From Planctomycetales bacterium (GTDB lineage Bacteria; Planctomycetota; Planctomycetia; Isosphaerales; Isosphaeraceae), in assembly GCA_027449865.1 (NCBI GenBank), contig DAIDKV010000181.1, positions 1 to 43,799 on the forward strand: a stretch of 43,799 nt of DNA, read 5' to 3'. The position numbers were made by a program, and so were the translations under genes. The notes below the pieces were generated by a model, which did not search any database, was not told the DNA's origin, and saw only the letters and a program-made list of their open reading frames with translations. Shown in pieces: positions 17,642-35,066 of the stretch; position 1 is the first letter of the stretch; the number at the start of each line of letters is the position of its first letter.

Positions 17642-20600
17642 TTAGCCACCGTGGCCATTCGAGCCCGAGTTGTCGGAGCCCTTGCTCCAGCTCCAGCTCC
17701 AGCCCCAACCGCTCGAATCGTTCGAGCCAGAGCCCGAGCCGCACGAGCCCGAGCCCGAGTCGTTCGAGCTAGAGCCCGAGTCGTTCGAGCCCGAGCCGCA
17801 GGAGCCCGAGCCCGAGTCGTTCGAGCCCGAGTCGTTCGAGCTAGAGCCGGAGTCGTTCGAGCCCGAGCCGCACGAGCCCGAGCCGGAGTCGTTCGAGCCG
17901 GAGTCGTTTGAGCCCGAGTCACACGAGCCAGAGCCCGAGTCGTTCGAGCCGGAGCCCGAATCGTTCGAGCCCGAGTCGCACGAGCCGGAGCCCGAGCCGC
18001 CCGGATACACCGAGGCGACCTCCTTCTCGCTGCCGAACGAGCTGGTAACCGTCCCGTTGTGCGCGTCGCCGCTGTAGACGACGACCCACTCATAGGTCCC
18101 GGCCTTGCTCGGAACGAATCCGCCGGGGTTGTCCCCCTGCGCGGTCGTGTAGGTGCCGTCGCCGCTGACAGTAACGACGTCCTTGTAGACGGCGGAGGTC
18201 AGCGGCGTGCTGGCGGTCGAGCCGGGCGCCATCAGGTAGAACGTCAGCGTTCCGCCCGGATTGGTCCCGCCGGAAAGCGTCGCCGAGTCGCTCAGGACGC
18301 CGTTGCCGTTGGGCGTGGCGGTCGGATGCGCCACCGAGGGGCCGCCACTGCTGGACGTCGAGCCGGGGCCGTCGGTCCCGCCGCAATCGCTCGAGATCTC
18401 GCGATCCTGCGCCTTGTAGAGCAGGTCGCCGCTGTCCGGGCCATAGGCGTCGTTGTTCTGGCTCGGCTCGAGCTGCTTGATCGGGTCACCACAGACGAAC
18501 GCGATCTGGTAGTCGCAGTTCGGGATCGTCACCGTCAGGGTGTGGTCCGACTTGGAGGAATAGCTGCCGCTATCCACCGAGCAGATCGTTTCCTGGTAGG
18601 CGTTCGAGTCGCTGAACGAGGAACTCGGCGCCTTGTACACGATCAGGCTATAGGTCTGATCGCTGTTCGAGGGCAACCGAACGGAGACGGTGTCACCCTC
18701 CTGGGTGTTGCCGTCAAGCGACGAGTATTGCTGGGACTGGCTGCCCCAACCACCCCAGCCGCCCCAACCACCCCAGCCGCCGCCCCAACCACCCCAGCCG
18801 TTGTTCTGGCAGGTCACCGTGTAGGTGAACTGGCAATCGTTGTTGCTGGTGGGAACCTGGTAGTCCGCGAAATTATACCCGGAGTAGGTGTAATCGCTGA
18901 CGGCGTTGATGGTGTAGTACGTGTCGCCGGTGGAGCCGTCGGGGCCGCCGCCGGTCTGCACGTAGCCCTTGGGAACCGACTCCCAGACGGTGTAAGTACC
19001 GGGAGTGTTGACGTGGAACGTGTACGAGCCGTTGTCGCCGGTGACGGCCGTGGCGATCGTGGTCCATCCGCCGTTGCCGTTGGACTGCTTCAGGTCGATG
19101 GTGACGCCTGACTGCGGCGTATCCGACGAGGAGAAGCCGTTGCCGTTCGGGTCGAGGTACTTCGTCCCGGTGATCACGATGTTGCCGATCGTCGCCGTGG
19201 CACCCGGGGTGGTGGTCAGCGAGAGGCCATTATTGTTCGAGCCGTTGACGACCTCCGACTCGCTGCCGTACGAGCTGCTGGCCGACAGGTTATTGGTATC
19301 GCCGCTGTAGACGACGACCCACTCGTACGTGCCGGTGGTTGTCGGGATGGCGCTTCCGGTGGTGGTGCCGGAGGCCGTGGTGTAGGTGCCGTCGCCCTTG
19401 ACGGTGACGGTGTCGGTGAAGACGGCGGAGGTCAGCGGCGTGCTGGAGTTCGAGCCGGGCGCCATCAGGTAGAAGGTGATGGTGCCGGCGCCGTTGTAGG
19501 TTCCGGAGAGCTTCGCCGAGTCGCTCAGGATCCCGGTCGCGGTCGCGGTCGGGCTCTGGGTTGCGGTCGGGTGGGTCGGGGTGGCCGGGTTGGGGTTGTT
19601 CGGGTAGGGCGTGGCGATCGAGTAGCCGCCGCTGTCGGAGCTGATGAAGCGATCCTGGGCGTGATAGAGCAGCTCGGCGCTATCGGGCCCGTAGGCGTTG
19701 TTGTTCTGGGTGGGGTCGAGCTGCTTGAGGGCCGACCCGCAGACGAAATCGATCTGGTAATAGTTATCGGGGAGCTTGACGGTCAGGCTATGGGAGCCGG
19801 GGCCGAAGGTTCCGGTGTCCTGCTGATCGATCGTCTGCTTGTAGGGGTCGGAGAAGTTCGACGAGGGGGCGATGTAGCTGACGAGGGTCAGCGTGTCGCT
19901 CTTCCCATCCGGAATGGTGAAGTTCACCGTGACGGTATCGCCGGGCGCGGTGTTGCCGCCGAGGCTGCAATAGGTCTGGCTGCACCCGTTGGGCGTGGTG
20001 ACCGTGTAGCTGACGTTCGTGACCGAGCAGGTGCTCGTCTGGAAGTCGGCGAAGTCGTTACCCGAGTAGGCGTATCCAGACTGGGCGTTGATGGTGTAGT
20101 ACGTGTTCCCGGCGGAGCCGTCGGGACCGCCACCGGTCTGGATGTAGCCCTGCGGGACCGACTCCTGGACGTAGTAGGTGGCCGGGACGAGACCGGTGAA
20201 GCTGTAGGTACCGTCGCTGGCCGTGGTCGTCTTGGCGACGAGCGACCAGCTATTGTTGGTGCCCGGCTTGTACAGGTCGATGGTCACCCCACTCTGACCC
20301 GACTCGGTCGAGGGGGAGTAACCATTGCCGGTAGTGTCGAGGTACTTGGTTCCCTCGATCGTGATCCCGGTGCCGCCACTGCCCCCGAGAGTGACCGGGC
20401 CGCCAGGAGTGGTGGCGATCGACGGGGTGGCCGGGATGGTGGTGACGCCCTCGTTCTTCCCGTTGTCCGAGGCACCGGCGTTGTTCTTGTCGCCGGAGTA
20501 CGTGGCGTGCCAGGTGTATGTCCCGACCTCGGTGGCCAGCACGGGCGTCGGCGTGGTGTAGCTTCCGTCGCCGTTGACGGTCCTGGTTGCGTCGGCTGAC

Positions 20601-22309
20601 GGCAGTGTGACCAGCTTGCCGTCAGGGCCAGTCAGCGTGAAGGAGATTGTCCCGGTCGGGGCATAGCCTCCAGTCAGCGCCGCCGTGTCTGTCAGGGTTG
20701 CCGTACCGACCACGTTGCCGTTCTCGCTCGCCTGCGTGGTGATCGCAGGAGCGGCCTGGTTCACCGTGAACGGCTCGGGCGCCCCGACCGACATGTTGTA
20801 ATGGGAGTCGCCGCTGTAAACCCCGATGAACGCGTAACCGCCCGAGTCCAGCGGCCCGACGGTCGGCGACGGAGGAACCACGCCGCTACTGAGTGACTCC
20901 TGATACGATTGGATCGGCGTTGACGTTCCGTAGACCGGCGTCGAGGTATTGTACAGGTAATAGGTGACCGTGCCGGTCGGGACTGGTCCGCCCGGGATGC
21001 CGGTGACGGTCGCGGTGTCGTACACCGAATCACCCGGCGCGATCGGGGCCGTGATCGCGCTACTGGTGGTCGCGTCATGCAGACTGGTCGACACACTTGC
21101 GGGAGCAAGGTTGTTGAAGTTGAGCGAGCCCGGGGCGATCACGTCCTGGTAGCCCTGGGTGGAGTAGGATGCTTTGAGTAAGATCGCCTGATCAGAGTGA
21201 CCGATCGCATCGTTGATGTAATGAGTTGCGATCGACTGCAAATCCGTGATCCCCGCGGGGTCGTTGGTGATGCCCTGCAGGCCGCCGACCAGGGTGAAGT
21301 TGCTGGCATTGCCGGTATTCCAGTAGTTCTGGAAACCCGGGTCGGTCGGAATTGTGGAAACCGGTGTGGTCGGAGCCGGATCGTACTCGAGCTTCCAGAT
21401 AGCGATCTGAAGCGCCTGCGCCTCGTACGCCTGATTCAAGGTGAAAGGGTCGGTGGCCGCGGACCCGGTGTTCGAGATCGGGGCGCCGAACTGGTCAACC
21501 AGGTAGTTGATGTACTGATTATAAAGATAAGCGATTTCTCCAGCGTTGGCTGAAAGAGCCGGAGAGGTAAGCTGGGAGAGCGGCTGACCGGAGGCACCAA
21601 AGCTATCGGGACTGAAGCCGAGGCCCTCGACGGCGTTGAGACAGAAGGCACTGAACTCCTGCGTCTGTGTCAGGCCGGAGCCAGTGACCGTGATCGGCAG
21701 TTGCCCGAACGAAAACTGCTCGCTCAGGGAACTATTGCCTGTGTTCAGGGTAAACTTCAGATCGCCCGGGTATCGGGCAAATTCGCCCGTCGTGTTGGCG
21801 GTGTTCGTAAAGCTGCCGCTGTCAAAGGCCACAGTGAGCGAGGTCGGGTCGACAACCTGAACGGTGATCGAGTTGGCCGTCGAGGCGCTGACAGGGTTGA
21901 GCGGCGAGACGTAGGAGGTTCCCTGATTGTTGTAGCCCGTCGGCGGGATCTCCACGACGGTGTAGGTGCCGGGCGCCAGCCCGTTGAACGAGTACGAGCC
22001 ATCGGCGGCCGAGGTCGTGGTCAGGAAGGGTGTCGACGATGGGCTCGGAACGGTTGATCCCTGATAGAGATCGATCGTGGCGCCGGCGACGACCGTGCCC
22101 GCGGTGGAGGGGTCGAAGGGATTGGGATAATTGTTGTTGGGGTTGCCGACCTGGTTAGAAGTATTGTTGACGAAGACAGTCCCCTGGATGAAGCCGGCGC
22201 CCGTCGAAAGCACGATCCTGGGCTCGGCGACCTCCAGCATCGGCATGATCCGGCGGACCTTGGCCCGGCGACGCGGTGTCCGGCGTGTCCAGTTCCTGGC
22301 GTTCCACAT
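17642..22309 (-). CDS. Giant SdrD-like surface protein with predicted thioester domain
   Basis: A 1555-residue protein. The basic N-terminus leads to LEVAEPRIVLS (25-35), a LEPR-XLL-like export motif. Residues 38-150 are a first SdrD/Cna-B-like domain. Residues about 175-395 resemble a thioester domain: Cys223 in SAFCLNAVEGLGF and Gln301 in ALQIAIWKLEYD fit the known Cys-Gln crosslink pair. Ig-like repeats follow at about 425-515 and 525-620. Then a module of about 385 residues occurs twice (650-1020 and 1046-1430): a Cna-B-like domain, a beta domain with 'DRxISSD', and an Ig-like repeat ending WVVVYSGD. A Trp-Gly tract lies at 1171-1189. The tail (1437-1555) is low-complexity Ser/Gly/Asn/Asp/Cys. 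GAGGAG precedes the ATG. It is probably a covalent adhesin or stalk. Confidence 0.88.
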   Translation of the reverse strand: MWNARNWTRRTPRRRAKVRRIMPMLEVAEPRIVLSTGAGFIQGTVFVNNTSNQVGNPNNNYPNPFDPSTAGTVVAGATIDLYQGSTVPSPSSTPFLTTTSAADGSYSFNGLAPGTYTVVEIPPTGYNNQGTSYVSPLNPVSASTANSITVQVVDPTSLTVAFDSGSFTNTANTTGEFARYPGDLKFTLNTGNSSLSEQFSFGQLPITVTGSGLTQTQEFSAFCLNAVEGLGFSPDSFGASGQPLSQLTSPALSANAGEIAYLYNQYINYLVDQFGAPISNTGSAATDPFTLNQAYEAQALQIAIWKLEYDPAPTTPVSTIPTDPGFQNYWNTGNASNFTLVGGLQGITNDPAGITDLQSIATHYINDAIGHSDQAILLKASYSTQGYQDVIAPGSLNFNNLAPASVSTSLHDATTSSAITAPIAPGDSVYDTATVTGIPGGPVPTGTVTYYLYNTSTPVYGTSTPIQSYQESLSSGVVPPSPTVGPLDSGGYAFIGVYSGDSHYNMSVGAPEPFTVNQAAPAITTQASENGNVVGTATLTDTAALTGGYAPTGTISFTLTGPDGKLVTLPSADATRTVNGDGSYTTPTPVLATEVGTYTWHATYSGDKNNAGASDNGKNEGVTTIPATPSIATTPGGPVTLGGSGGTGITIEGTKYLDTTGNGYSPSTESGQSGVTIDLYKPGTNNSWSLVAKTTTASDGTYSFTGLVPATYYVQESVPQGYIQTGGGPDGSAGNTYYTINAQSGYAYSGNDFADFQTSTCSVTNVSYTVTTPNGCSQTYCSLGGNTAPGDTVTVNFTIPDGKSDTLTLVSYIAPSSNFSDPYKQTIDQQDTGTFGPGSHSLTVKLPDNYYQIDFVCGSALKQLDPTQNNNAYGPDSAELLYHAQDRFISSDSGGYSIATPYPNNPNPATPTHPTATQSPTATATGILSDSAKLSGTYNGAGTITFYLMAPGSNSSTPLTSAVFTDTVTVKGDGTYTTASGTTTGSAIPTTTGTYEWVVVYSGDTNNLSASSSYGSESEVVNGSNNNGLSLTTTPGATATIGNIVITGTKYLDPNGNGFSSSDTPQSGVTIDLKQSNGNGGWTTIATAVTGDNGSYTFHVNTPGTYTVWESVPKGYVQTGGGPDGSTGDTYYTINAVSDYTYSGYNFADYQVPTSNNDCQFTYTVTCQNNGWGGWGGGWGGWGGWGGWGSQSQQYSSLDGNTQEGDTVSVRLPSNSDQTYSLIVYKAPSSSFSDSNAYQETICSVDSGSYSSKSDHTLTVTIPNCDYQIAFVCGDPIKQLEPSQNNDAYGPDSGDLLYKAQDREISSDCGGTDGPGSTSSSGGPSVAHPTATPNGNGVLSDSATLSGGTNPGGTLTFYLMAPGSTASTPLTSAVYKDVVTVSGDGTYTTAQGDNPGGFVPSKAGTYEWVVVYSGDAHNGTVTSSFGSEKEVASVYPGGSGSGSCDSGSNDSGSGSNDSGSGSCDSGSNDSGSNDSGSGSCGSGSNDSGSSSNDSGSNDSGSGSCGSGSNDSGSSSNDSGSGSCGSGSGSNDSSGWGWSWSWSKGSDNSGSNGHGG
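17645..18001. repeat. Degenerate tandem repeat encoding the Ser-Gly-Asn-Asp-Cys tail
   Basis: The last 119 codons of the large adhesin are made from short repeated blocks such as GAGCCCGAGTCGTTCGAGCC on the plus strand. On the minus strand they encode SGSNDSGSGSC-type repeats. Six SC pairs recur at irregular intervals. The array is likely to vary in length between strains and to give false open frames in other reading frames. Confidence 0.85.
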
Positions 22310-22608: not shown

Positions 22609-24282
22609 TCAGGAGAAGAGCGACCAGTCTCCCGTCAAAATGGCCTCGGCGCCGAGCAGGGCGTTGGTCGTGGCGTGGGCGGCGACGGCATCGCCGAGCG
22701 AGCCGCGCCGGTGGTACGCATAGGCGTAGAGCATCCCGGCGATTGTTCCCTCGATCCATCGACCGTGCAGGACACCAAAGGCGACCGAGGAGAGGACAAG
22801 GGAAACCCAGGTGAATCGTCCGTGGGGGATCGAGCCGAAGTCGGCGGCGAGGATACGGCGGGCGAGGAAGCCGCGGAAGGCCAGCTCCTCGGCGATCGGG
22901 ACGGTGACAGCCGAGCCGATCGCCCGCGCCGTCAGCCAGGCGGCGGCGCCGGCGGGTCCGAGGGCGTCGAGCACGGTGGACCGGATCGGCGAGGTGCCGA
23001 TCGCGGCGGGCCACCGGGCCATCCAGAGCAGGAAGACCAGTCCGCCGATCGCTGGCGCGGCCCACGAGACCGACCACCGGATCGCCGCATACTCGCGCCG
23101 GTAGGCCCAGAGCGGAACGGCGACAGCCAGAAGCCGGATCGGATACCAGAGGTCCACCCCTCCGGCGGAGAAAGCGGCGCCGATCATCGAGGCGGCGACG
23201 ATCGCGAGCATCGGGGCCAGGTAGACGGCCTCGGGCGACGGGCCGGCATGGACCATGGTTTTTTGGGTGGGCTCGTCTCTCTCGCGGCGGAAGTATCGGG
23301 TGTGGCGGGCCGTCGCCAGGAGGCCCAGCGCCACGGCGTTGAACGCGAGCCATCCGGCCTGCGAGTGGAATCCGCCGAGCGCGACCTCGGGCGAGCCGAA
23401 CGTGCCGAGCAGGATGAGCAAGGTGATCCGCAGAACGTTCGCGGTCCAGATGGCCACCGTGCCGATCGGCAGGAGGAGCCAGGCGCGAGGGAAGCTCAGC
23501 CGGCGGCGGTCGAGCCAGAGATAGGCCGCCAGGAAGGCCAGAACCAGGCCGATCCCCTCGTATCCGGAGCACTCCGGCGCGATCGTCACCGAGAAGGTCT
23601 CGGTTCCGATGAGGGCTTCCGAGGGGACGTAGGTCATCGGCAGCCCGGTCGCGGCGAGCAGGAGATGGACCATCTCGAACGTCCATCGCCCCATCGGCCG
23701 CCAGAGCTCGCGCGCCATCAGTCCGGCGGCGGTCGCCGAGGCACCGACGGCCAGCGCGATCGCCCCGGTTCTCGCCCCCAGCCGGATCGAGGCGCCCCAC
23801 GACCGGGGAGGGATCATCGAGGCGGCCAGCGTCGCCGCCACCAGGAGGCCCACGAGCGCCCAGGCGACGATCCAGGTCACCCCGGTAGCCGCCCCATTCT
23901 CCAGCGCCGAGGTCATTCGCCAGAAGATCGCGAGCGTTCCAAAATGGAGCGCCAGCAGCGGCCAGGCCACGAAACCGCCCAGGCCCGCCTCGCGCGCTGG
24001 GCCTTCACCCAACCCCCGGCGACCGAAAAAGATCGCGGCCGCCGCCCCGGTCATCGCCACCACAATTCCGAGGCTCGAATGCCCCAAAAGCCAGGCCGCC
24101 CAGGCGGTGCTTCGACCATCCCCGCCCGATCCGGCCAGGATCGTCTCCCCGATCGTCCGGGCGTCGAACCGAAACGACAGAGCCATCGCCTCGGCCAGCA
24201 GCAGAATCGCCGACAGAGCAGGCCGCGCCAGAGCCCGCGGCGAGCCCATCAAGCCGGGCCTCTCGATCACTTCGGTGCTCAT
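22609..24282 (-). CDS. xrtE: Exosortase E/protease (XrtE-type fusion)
   Basis: A 557-residue polytopic membrane protein with two catalytic halves. The N-terminal half is an exosortase: Cys238 in APECSGYEGIGLVLAF, Arg285 in TANVLRITLL and His306 in GGFHSQAGW form the expected Cys-Arg-His set. The C-terminal half is a CAAX-prenyl-protease-like (CPBP) domain: EELAFRGFL (Glu465, Glu466, Arg470), FGVLHGRW (His506) and HATTN (His536, Asn540). This fusion is the family known as exosortase E/protease of the VPEID-CTERM system. It should cleave and process proteins with a PEID sorting signal, and one is encoded 76 bp upstream on the same strand. The start is the ATG at 24282; a TTG at 24333 would add 17 residues. 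Confidence 0.93.
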   Translation of the reverse strand: MSTEVIERPGLMGSPRALARPALSAILLLAEAMALSFRFDARTIGETILAGSGGDGRSTAWAAWLLGHSSLGIVVAMTGAAAAIFFGRRGLGEGPAREAGLGGFVAWPLLALHFGTLAIFWRMTSALENGAATGVTWIVAWALVGLLVAATLAASMIPPRSWGASIRLGARTGAIALAVGASATAAGLMARELWRPMGRWTFEMVHLLLAATGLPMTYVPSEALIGTETFSVTIAPECSGYEGIGLVLAFLAAYLWLDRRRLSFPRAWLLLPIGTVAIWTANVLRITLLILLGTFGSPEVALGGFHSQAGWLAFNAVALGLLATARHTRYFRRERDEPTQKTMVHAGPSPEAVYLAPMLAIVAASMIGAAFSAGGVDLWYPIRLLAVAVPLWAYRREYAAIRWSVSWAAPAIGGLVFLLWMARWPAAIGTSPIRSTVLDALGPAGAAAWLTARAIGSAVTVPIAEELAFRGFLARRILAADFGSIPHGRFTWVSLVLSSVAFGVLHGRWIEGTIAGMLYAYAYHRRGSLGDAVAAHATTNALLGAEAILTGDWSLFS

Positions 24283-24358
24283 CGCGTCGTTCAACCCACC
24301 CCCTGGAAGAGACGACGCGACGTCCGGAGCCAAAAAGCCCCGGACGCCGCCCCGGAAA

Positions 24359-24547
24359 TCAAGCCTTGCGGCCCTTGCCCGTCAGCCAGAACGCTCCGCC
24401 AACCAGCAGAGTCAGCGCGCTACCCATCGAGCCCGGATCGATCTCAGGAGTCGGATTCGGCCCGCCAGCGACGGCCGCCGTCGAGATCCCCGCCACGATC
24501 AGAGCCAGACCAAGCACGCGGGCCATTCCACCAAAAGCCTTCTTCAT
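24359..24547 (-). CDS. PEID (VPEID-CTERM-like) sorting-signal protein
   Basis: A 62-residue protein consisting almost only of targeting signals. Residues 1-27 are a signal peptide (MKKAFGGMARVLGLALIVAG then ISTAAVA). PTPEIDPGS (32-40) matches the VPEID-type motif with Thr in place of Val. A hydrophobic span (SALTLLVGGAFWL) and GKGRKA end it. After both cuts only about ten residues would remain free. It is the likely substrate of the exosortase E/protease gene directly downstream, and the two are probably cotranscribed. GGAGAG lies 7 bp before the ATG at 24547. The upstream in-frame extension lacks a signal-like sequence and is rejected. Confidence 0.88.
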   Translation of the reverse strand: MKKAFGGMARVLGLALIVAGISTAAVAGGPNPTPEIDPGSMGSALTLLVGGAFWLTGKGRKA

Positions 24548-33216: not shown

Positions 33217-34452
33217 ATGGAGGCCCCCGGCGCCATGGAACCCGCGATCCGAAGACTGATTGTCCAGGGCTTCCGGAGCATCCGCTCGGAGGTCGTCGAC
33301 TTCGACAATCCCACGTTCTTCGTCGGGCGGAACGGCTCGGGGAAGAGCAACCTCGTGGATGCGCTGGCGTTCCTGGGGGAGTGCATGACGACGCCCCTCC
33401 GCTGGGTGTTCGCGGATTGGGGGCGGCGTCGGGCCCTGACGTACGGCTCCTCGCGTGCTTCGGTCCCCGGGCCTGTCGAAAGGCTAGGAATCAGCACCGT
33501 CCTTGGACCGATCGACGATGTGGTCTCGGGGGCTCGCTATTCGGTGTCGATCGTTCCGAGCGAAGACGACCTCTCGCCTTATCGTGTCGAGCGAGAGCAA
33601 TGTTTCATCGAGTGCCGGGGAGAGCAGGGCCATTGGTTTGATCGAATCGGGTCCGAGCCCTTCCGCACGAATGCCGATGGCCTCCGGCCTCAATTGTCGG
33701 AAGACGCTCTGGCTCTGCCGTTGCTGGGCGGCGATTCCCGATTCGGCCCCCTGTTCGAGACATTGGCCGGGATCCGGACCTATGCGATCGTACCCGATCG
33801 CGTCAGGGAGTTTCAGCTCCCCGACCGCGGATGGAATCTTCATCGCGACGGCGACAATGCGGCGAGCGTCCTTCGACGGATCGAGGAGAACAACCCGGAC
33901 GACCTGCAACGGATCGGCGAGTTCCTGGGCGCCATCGTCCCGGGGATCGAGCGAATCGAGGTGAAGCCATATGGGCCCAAGCTGGGCCTGGAATTCACGC
34001 AGCGTTGGAACGGCTCTCCCGGCTCCCTGGTCCTGGAAGCTTCAAGCATGTCCGATGGGACATTGCGTACCCTGGGCTTGCTTGCAGCGGTTTACCAACG
34101 GCAAACGCCCTCGGTGATGATCATCGAGGAACCCGAGGCGACGATTCACCCTGGAGCCTTGAGTGTGATTCTTGACGTCCTCCACCACGCCAGCGAGCGC
34201 GGCCAGGTGATCGTCACGACGCATAGCCCCGAGGTCCTCGACGCCGAATGGCTGGAAGATCGGCACATCCGGATCGTGGACTGGCAGGACGGCGAGACCC
34301 GCGTCCTGCCGCTGGGCATACGATCGAGGGAAGCCCTGCGGCAGCACCTGATGAGCGCCGGTGAATTGATGCGATCGAACGCACTGACCGGCGTTTCTCG
34401 CCCCTCGGATTCGACGCCGAGAGCGCAGTTGTTCGAGGAAGCCCTGGTATGA
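33217..34452 (+). CDS. AAA/ABC-type ATPase of a putative defence pair
   Basis: A 411-residue ATPase of the RecF/OLD-like AAA15/AAA21 type. Walker A is GRNGSGKS (37-44), the signature-like motif is SSMSDGTLRTL, Walker B is SVMIIEEPEATIHPG and the H-loop is VIVTTHSPEVL. The middle part (about 80-240) is a variable helical insert. Such ATPases, when followed by a small Toprim-like gene, are known from PARIS, AbiL and related anti-phage modules, where the ATPase senses infection and holds or releases the partner. Its stop overlaps the next start by 4 bp. The ATG at 33217 is used; an ATG at 33235 with GGAGG upstream is nearly as good. Confidence 0.88.
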   Translation: MEAPGAMEPAIRRLIVQGFRSIRSEVVDFDNPTFFVGRNGSGKSNLVDALAFLGECMTTPLRWVFADWGRRRALTYGSSRASVPGPVERLGISTVLGPIDDVVSGARYSVSIVPSEDDLSPYRVEREQCFIECRGEQGHWFDRIGSEPFRTNADGLRPQLSEDALALPLLGGDSRFGPLFETLAGIRTYAIVPDRVREFQLPDRGWNLHRDGDNAASVLRRIEENNPDDLQRIGEFLGAIVPGIERIEVKPYGPKLGLEFTQRWNGSPGSLVLEASSMSDGTLRTLGLLAAVYQRQTPSVMIIEEPEATIHPGALSVILDVLHHASERGQVIVTTHSPEVLDAEWLEDRHIRIVDWQDGETRVLPLGIRSREALRQHLMSAGELMRSNALTGVSRPSDSTPRAQLFEEALV

Positions 34453-35066
34453 CCATCCAGCCAATCGTCGAGGGCGATACCGAGGTGGTGACGCTGCCAT
34501 TGTTGTTGCGGCGATTGATCGCGGAGGCCGGCGCCTATACGGTCGACATCGGATACCCCGTCAAGCGGCCCAGGTCCTTGCTGGCCCGCGAGGATGGAAT
34601 TCACGAGGCCGTGCGCCTGGCCCGGCTGGAGCCCGACTGCGACGCCATCCTGATCGTGTTCGACGCCGATGACGACTGCCCGAAGGACCTTGCACCGCGA
34701 GTTCAGGCATGGGCCCAGGCAGCGGCCGCTAGGCTCCCCTGCTACGTGGTCATGCCGAACCGCGAATTCGAGGCGTGGTTCCTCGCGGCGATCGAATCCC
34801 TGCGCGGGACGCGAGGCATCCGGCACGATGCGACCTCGCACCCCGATCCCGAATCGAAGCGAGGCGCCGCCGAGGAACTTCGAAGACGGATGACCCCGAA
34901 CCGGACCTATTCCAAGCGCACGGACGCAGCGGCCCTGATCCAGGCCCTCGACCTGGCCGAAGCCCACCGACGATGCCGATCGTTCCGTCGGATGGTCCGG
35001 GCCTTCGGGCGGCTCGCCAACGAGCTGGGCGTCACCCTCCCGCAGTGGCCGCCGGCGGGATGGTGA
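34449..35066 (+). CDS. DUF4276/Toprim-like partner of the ATPase
   Basis: A 205-residue protein. PIVEGDTEVVTLPLLLRRL at the start carries the Glu of a Toprim-like fold, and AILIVFDADDDCP holds the DxD motif. PNREFEAWFLAAIESL follows as in DUF4276 proteins. The Toprim fold binds magnesium and is used by nucleases in OLD and PARIS-like systems. The remainder is a helical C-terminus. It is translationally coupled to the ATPase gene upstream (ATGA overlap) and ends 12 bp before the convergent YfhO-like gene. Nuclease or effector activity is inferred from the fold and pairing, not shown. Confidence 0.83.
   Translation: MTIQPIVEGDTEVVTLPLLLRRLIAEAGAYTVDIGYPVKRPRSLLAREDGIHEAVRLARLEPDCDAILIVFDADDDCPKDLAPRVQAWAQAAAARLPCYVVMPNREFEAWFLAAIESLRGTRGIRHDATSHPDPESKRGAAEELRRRMTPNRTYSKRTDAAALIQALDLAEAHRRCRSFRRMVRAFGRLANELGVTLPQWPPAGW

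Follow-up and report, generated by a model that had tools for sequence, protein, structure and literature searches.

What does a planctomycete enzyme with two catalytic sites do beside a substrate that carries almost nothing to be sorted? The question is raised by a trio of genes that lie in order on the minus strand of the window (the whole stretch of DNA analysed, 43,799 nucleotides): a gene for a protein of 62 residues (24547-24359), a gene for an enzyme of 557 residues (24282-22609), and a gene for a repeat adhesin of 1555 residues (22309-17642). The reading put forward here, to which we give an even chance, is that of a dedicated pair of one enzyme and one tagged substrate inside a planctomycete adhesion module. 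Elsewhere in the window, two adjacent ORFs (33217-35066, plus strand) match parts A (E 1e-97) and B (E 1e-58) of HEC-01, a PADLOC candidate defence system.

The exosortase E/protease fusion

The enzyme ORF (ATG at 24282, stop at 22609, minus strand) codes for an exosortase E (residues 1 to about 330) fused to a CPBP/CAAX-type protease (about 348 to 557). It scores 223 bits (E 8e-66) against the NCBIfam profile TIGR04162 (exosortase E/protease), for which the curated cut-off is 150, and exceeds the Pfam cut-offs for PF09721 and PF02517; specifically, the CPBP/Rce1-like second half reaches 56.9 bits against PF02517, with a gathering cut-off of 22.4. Judged by these profiles, the enzyme is a genuine fusion of exosortase E and CPBP protease and belongs to TIGR04162, the family in which an earlier note on this DNA had placed it; the profile search, which that note named as a possible source of refutation, did not point elsewhere. 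The catalytic residues that it had reported as intact in both halves are also found at the positions it gave: the Cys/Arg/His triad of exosortases (C238, R285, H306) and the EExxxR (E465-E466-x3-R470), FxxxH (F502/H506) and HxxxN (H536/N540) motifs of CPBP proteases all lie within one chain. Of these, C238, R285, H306, E465, E466, R470, H506 and H536 are invariant in 42 sequences from many phyla and N540 is kept in 41, and since the wider homologues were searched for with patterns around C238 or E465/E466/R470, the invariance at those positions is partly by construction. All nine are invariant in 10 family-level homologues, which were collected without such patterns and are unaffected by that bias.

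The AlphaFold2 model of the enzyme has a mean pLDDT of 87. Averaged over the 42 sequences, the loops rich in Arg and Lys are 89-108, 257-266, 327-350, 393-408 and 522-531, and those that are not include the C238 loop and 294-299. Because of these loop charges, the positive-inside rule predicts that the exosortase site around C238 faces the periplasm and that the CPBP residues (E465/R470/H536) lie on the cytoplasmic side of the membrane; a periplasmic active site has been proposed for the EpsH exosortase as well (PMC1569441). Among PDB structures, the full XrtE chain gives no significant match with Foldseek and the exosortase half no convincing one, while the best structural match of the second half is the CPBP-like SpdC (6u0o; Z 6.4, rmsd 6.2 over 178 residues), for which a common helical arrangement could suffice.

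Stand-alone CAAX-type proteases, kin of the second half of exosortase E, occur in the same genome (L002, contig C190) and are widespread in the relatives (L014-L030), with no PEID tags adjoining them. Exosortase E is not the sole exosortase of the genome, since two more are present on contigs C97 and C277 (loci L040 and L041); as read from the ORFs, the gene after the exosortase is EpsI-like in L041 and glycosyltransferase-like in L040.

The small PEID protein

The small gene (24359-24547, minus strand) lies 76 nt upstream of the enzyme gene and carries GGAGAG 7 nt 5' of its ATG. Its product consists of a signal peptide (residues 1-27, MKKAFGGMARVLGLALIVAGISTAAVA, ending in AVA), a linker of six residues (GGPNPT), and the remainder PEIDPGSMGSALTLLVGGAFWLTGKGRKA, with the motif PEIDPGSM, a transmembrane helix and a basic end. 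The general features of an exosortase tag are all present, namely the motif, the transmembrane helix and the C-terminal basic cluster on a protein with a signal peptide. No family in NCBIfam or Pfam matches the protein by hmmscan, and the VPEID-CTERM profile TIGR04161 (31 positions), run against the whole genome, does not retrieve it even at E<=10. Conversely, a tag-protein profile built from 10 relatives returns it as the sole strong and significant match in the 8.48-Mb genome. The small gene is not a chance reading frame, because of this single strong match, its conservation among congeners and the enrichment of tag ORFs by exosortase E described below. On these sequence grounds the 62-residue protein is likely the sole substrate of the enzyme, in agreement with the earlier note, which had proposed a dedicated and nearly cargo-less PEID substrate. 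The same note had put the free part at about ten residues; the scarcity of cargo holds, and the figure comes down to six residues before PEID if signal peptidase cuts after AVA. It had also singled out the Thr in place of Val before PEID, and this position turns out to be variable in the family (A, V, P and S are found there as well as T), which removes the substitution as a candidate change of specificity.

Same-genus relatives retain the small protein, and the changes outside the linker are mainly synonymous. Among three congeneric species, the signal peptide differs by 0-2 and the tag by 1-2 amino acids, whereas the linker shows either five changes in nine codons or an altered length (GGPNPT, GGGLEAA and TPPVLT); three sequences make a small sample, but the trend in them is plain and is matched by the family alignment. 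A short peptide released as an extracellular signal, the further suggestion of the earlier note, would fit the small size, the signal peptide and the dedicated processing enzyme. However, a sequence-specific released peptide is unlikely, because the linker diverges in sequence and length, even within the genus, while the signal peptide and the tag stay fixed: the only part that could be released is the fast-evolving one. Moreover, the genes that recur next to the pair include no receptor or regulator, and a pheromone role is accordingly given very little weight.

Directly 3' of the stop codon of the small gene lies a hairpin with a 15-bp RNA stem (24317-24350, minus strand). It is also present 3' of the stop in two congeneric species (z -3.5, -2.5 and -3.6), with small changes in the stem, and part of it scored as terminator-like in one scan, near the chance level there. 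A role as an attenuator or stabiliser between the substrate and enzyme genes is possible, and the hairpin may set the production of more substrate than enzyme.

Pairing of enzyme and tag across genomes

In a set of 40 relatives that counts the genome itself, the tag protein occurs in 11 of the 12 that encode the enzyme and in none of the 28 that do not. The lone exception (G011) is a genome 74% complete in which the contig runs out a short way upstream of the enzyme. In G010 the enzyme and the tag proteins are on different contigs, so that this genome gives no measure of adjacency. Across the phylum, 8 of 392 genomes encode the enzyme; all six matches of the tag profile fall within those eight, and on inspection the remaining two carry a PEID ORF adjoining the enzyme. 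A wider survey took in Planctomycetota, Acidobacteriota, Myxococcota, gamma-proteobacteria and others, 80 exosortase E loci in all. The enzyme frame was clear in 73 of them, and in 65 of the 73, from several phyla, there is a PE-x tag ORF no more than 2.5 kb from the enzyme, which bears out the expectation of the earlier note that the small gene should accompany the orthologues of the enzyme. The density of tag ORFs is 74 in 134 kb at less than 1 kb from exosortase E and 8 in 330 kb at more than 2.5 kb, an enrichment of about 23-fold, and 61 kb of control loci yielded no hit in the same scan. The dedicated pairing of enzyme and tag protein is thus well supported by gene content and position. 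Near eight exosortase E loci (L062, L063, L067, L090, L091, L092, L114 and L135) the scan found no PE-x tag ORF; these loci, several of them from Myxococcota, may use another tag.

Larger frames also bear the tag (G405, for instance, has one of 461 aa, and L081, L121 and L127 have several, 226-391 aa long), and in other phyla it occurs on proteins of 100-500 aa; because larger proteins bear it elsewhere, PEID is a genuine sorting tag. These cargo-bearing relatives would suit the idea that a formerly larger cargo gene has shrunk to this remnant. Against it, 31 of the 56 tag ORFs with a signal peptide (predicted by a simple heuristic) have at most 12 residues before PE and only 12 of 56 have more than 40, and the short form recurs in several phyla; the constraint on the small protein also speaks against decay, and we regard a remnant as very improbable. 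By these counts, the nearly cargo-less form is a common special case of the tag and the commonest one in the survey.

The same observations bear on a different role, in which the tag protein would be a regulator or pseudo-substrate: by occupying exosortase E it would control how active or how stable the enzyme is, the real targets having no recognisable PEID and possibly including the adhesin. It would account for a conserved part that is the tag rather than the released part, for the lack of any further PEID protein in the genome and for an untagged adhesin as the recurring neighbour, and the hairpin between the two genes could yield an excess of peptide. The presence of the same tag on real cargo proteins beside the same enzyme in other phyla marks it, however, as ordinarily a substrate label, and a regulatory role is held to be possible but unlikely.

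The downstream adhesin

The adhesin (17642-22309, minus strand) comprises an N-terminus like the planctomycete LEPR motif, a thioester-type domain (21125-21931), SpaA/SdrD_B/Big repeats and a C-terminal end rich in Gly, Ser, Asp and Asn. Clustering of neighbour genes identified it as a recurrent neighbour: a repeat adhesin lies directly downstream of the enzyme and on the same strand in L060, L061, L064, L074 (Aquisphaera insulae), L085 and L117 (Gemmataceae). The same holds for G011. Of 14 planctomycete loci with the enzyme, 8 have the adhesin-type domain next to it, against none of 66 other loci, and the earlier note, which had flagged the neighbouring adhesin as of interest, was right to do so. 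Its type is also present in G007, a genome 85% complete in which exosortase E was not detected. L065 (81-2588) and L070 (3954-5253) have the domain in another setting, upstream of exosortase E: there it belongs to small thioester-type proteins whose tails are PEP-CTERM-like, and these proteins alternate with, and are followed by, PEID peptides.

The adhesin domain carries the motifs [FYL]C-[VILT]-[DN] and LQ[IL]A[IV]W and a late Q-x-x-hydrophobic motif, followed by SpaA/SdrD_B repeats. Thioester domains have three corresponding motifs ([YFL]C, a central QxxPhiW and a late PhiQxxPhi; Walden et al., PMC4450167), and the central glutamine is not the one that forms the bond (PMC4450167). In the aligned set of 12 adhesin-domain homologues, all 12 have the Cys and at least 11 have the late Gln, the placement of which is uncertain in one; the domain of L061 lacks the middle glutamine and keeps the outer Cys/Gln pair, as thioester domains may do (Walden et al., PMC4450167). 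The candidate bond-forming pair, on the basis of this alignment, is C223 (in FCLN, codon 21641-21643) and Q388 (in YQDVI, codon 21146-21148), in preference to Q301 of LQIAIW (300-305), which was considered first and set aside on account of the role of the central glutamine.

The domain of this adhesin does not match PF08341 or any PDB sequence. A homologue (L070:7079-7939) exceeds the PF08341 gathering cut-off (26.2 against 22 bits), the other homologues being weak, and the PDB matches of the modelled domain are solely thioester domains (5a0g, Z 7.4; 4c0z, 6.7; 5a0l, 6.3), all with Z below 8, a Foldseek E of 0.29 and a model pLDDT of 66. Each line is modest, and jointly they make it very probable that this is a thioester domain, which occurs once in the genome; by sequence, the adhesin would probably grip other molecules covalently.

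The C-terminus of the adhesin has neither a PEID or PEP tag nor a transmembrane helix, which excludes it as a tagged substrate of the exosortase. Its last stretch (17642-17900, minus strand) consists of Gly/Ser/Asp/Asn repeats with regularly spaced cysteines and has no recognisable anchor. The adhesin is, on the survey of loci, a recurrent planctomycete partner of the enzyme, and gene order is what links the two. The linkage could be incidental, with exosortase E and the peptide having a general function in the processing of the envelope or of exopolysaccharide, and with the adhesin hitch-hiking beside them: the classical association of exosortases is with exopolysaccharide genes (PMC1569441), and the domain is absent from all 66 non-planctomycete loci and from 6 of the 14 planctomycete ones. 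The retention of the same gene order and strand in loci of both Isosphaeraceae and Gemmataceae, and the second architecture of L065 and L070, in which small thioester-type PEP-CTERM-like proteins precede the PEID peptide, argue against it and make an incidental linkage rather improbable.

Proposed mechanism

Sequence establishes the parts, their pairing and their conservation, from which we infer cleavage, transfer, a division of labour between the two sites and a link to adhesion. In the proposed one-substrate pair, the small protein would be exported and then retained in the inner membrane through its tag, which would place PEID at the periplasmic face. The periplasmic exosortase half (C238/R285/H306) would cut at PEID and probably transfer the short peptide to a surface acceptor, hydrolysis being the alternative; sortases and archaeosortases are thought to pass their cleaved product to such an acceptor. 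The CPBP half, with its residues on the cytoplasmic side, may then clip or clear the leftover tag helix, and the co-located untagged thioester adhesin would be the likely beneficiary, in surface attachment. The processing of C-terminal tags by a CPBP enzyme has been demonstrated for a myxosortase (PMC11980579). A more specific version is sorting in trans, in which the cargo-less tag, as the sole substrate of the two-site enzyme, would be needed to display or anchor the untagged thioester adhesin; we put it forward tentatively, as an unlikely but specific reading.

Comparison with known systems

The closest relative is the exosortase E/VPEID-CTERM system (TIGR04162 with TIGR04161), which has the same enzyme fusion and an adjoining small PEID-tagged protein. 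The present system differs in a PEIDPGSM tag that TIGR04161 misses, in a substrate with about six free residues and in the link of the planctomycete loci to a thioester-type adhesin. The PEP-CTERM/EpsH exosortase (PMC1569441) shares the Cys-Arg-His site, the tripartite C-terminal tag and the predicted topology; here, in contrast, there is one substrate rather than many, PEID in place of PEP, and a fused CPBP protease, a type of exosortase-CAAX protease fusion noted already in 2006 (PMC1569441). MrtX/MYXO-CTERM and MrtJ/JDVT-CTERM (PMC11980579) likewise dedicate a CPBP protease to a C-terminal tag, MrtJ as a two-gene pair with a single substrate (PMC11980579), whereas both act without an exosortase half on substrates that bear real cargo, and MYXO-CTERM has an invariant cysteine. 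Lastly, the adhesin resembles SfbI and Cpa of Gram-positive bacteria (PMC4450167) in the [YFL]C, central QxxPhiW helix and late PhiQxxPhi strand motifs, the N-terminal position of the domain and the repeat stalk, and differs from them in its planctomycete LEPR-like export motif, the lack of an LPXTG anchor and its exosortase neighbour.

Significance

The enzyme family is already known, and the cargo-less tag and the link to the adhesin appear to be undescribed: no description of either was found in the open-access literature searched, a scope that leaves most subscription journals outside. We know of no exosortase reaction reconstituted so far. With the system reduced here to one enzyme and one substrate of 62 residues, a size that suits co-expression and mass spectrometry, one can test directly where the substrate is cut, what becomes of the C-terminus and what each of the two active sites contributes. 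Thioester-type adhesins are known mainly from Gram-positive bacteria, and the link described here suggests one in planctomycetes and, for exosortase E, a role in surface adhesion.
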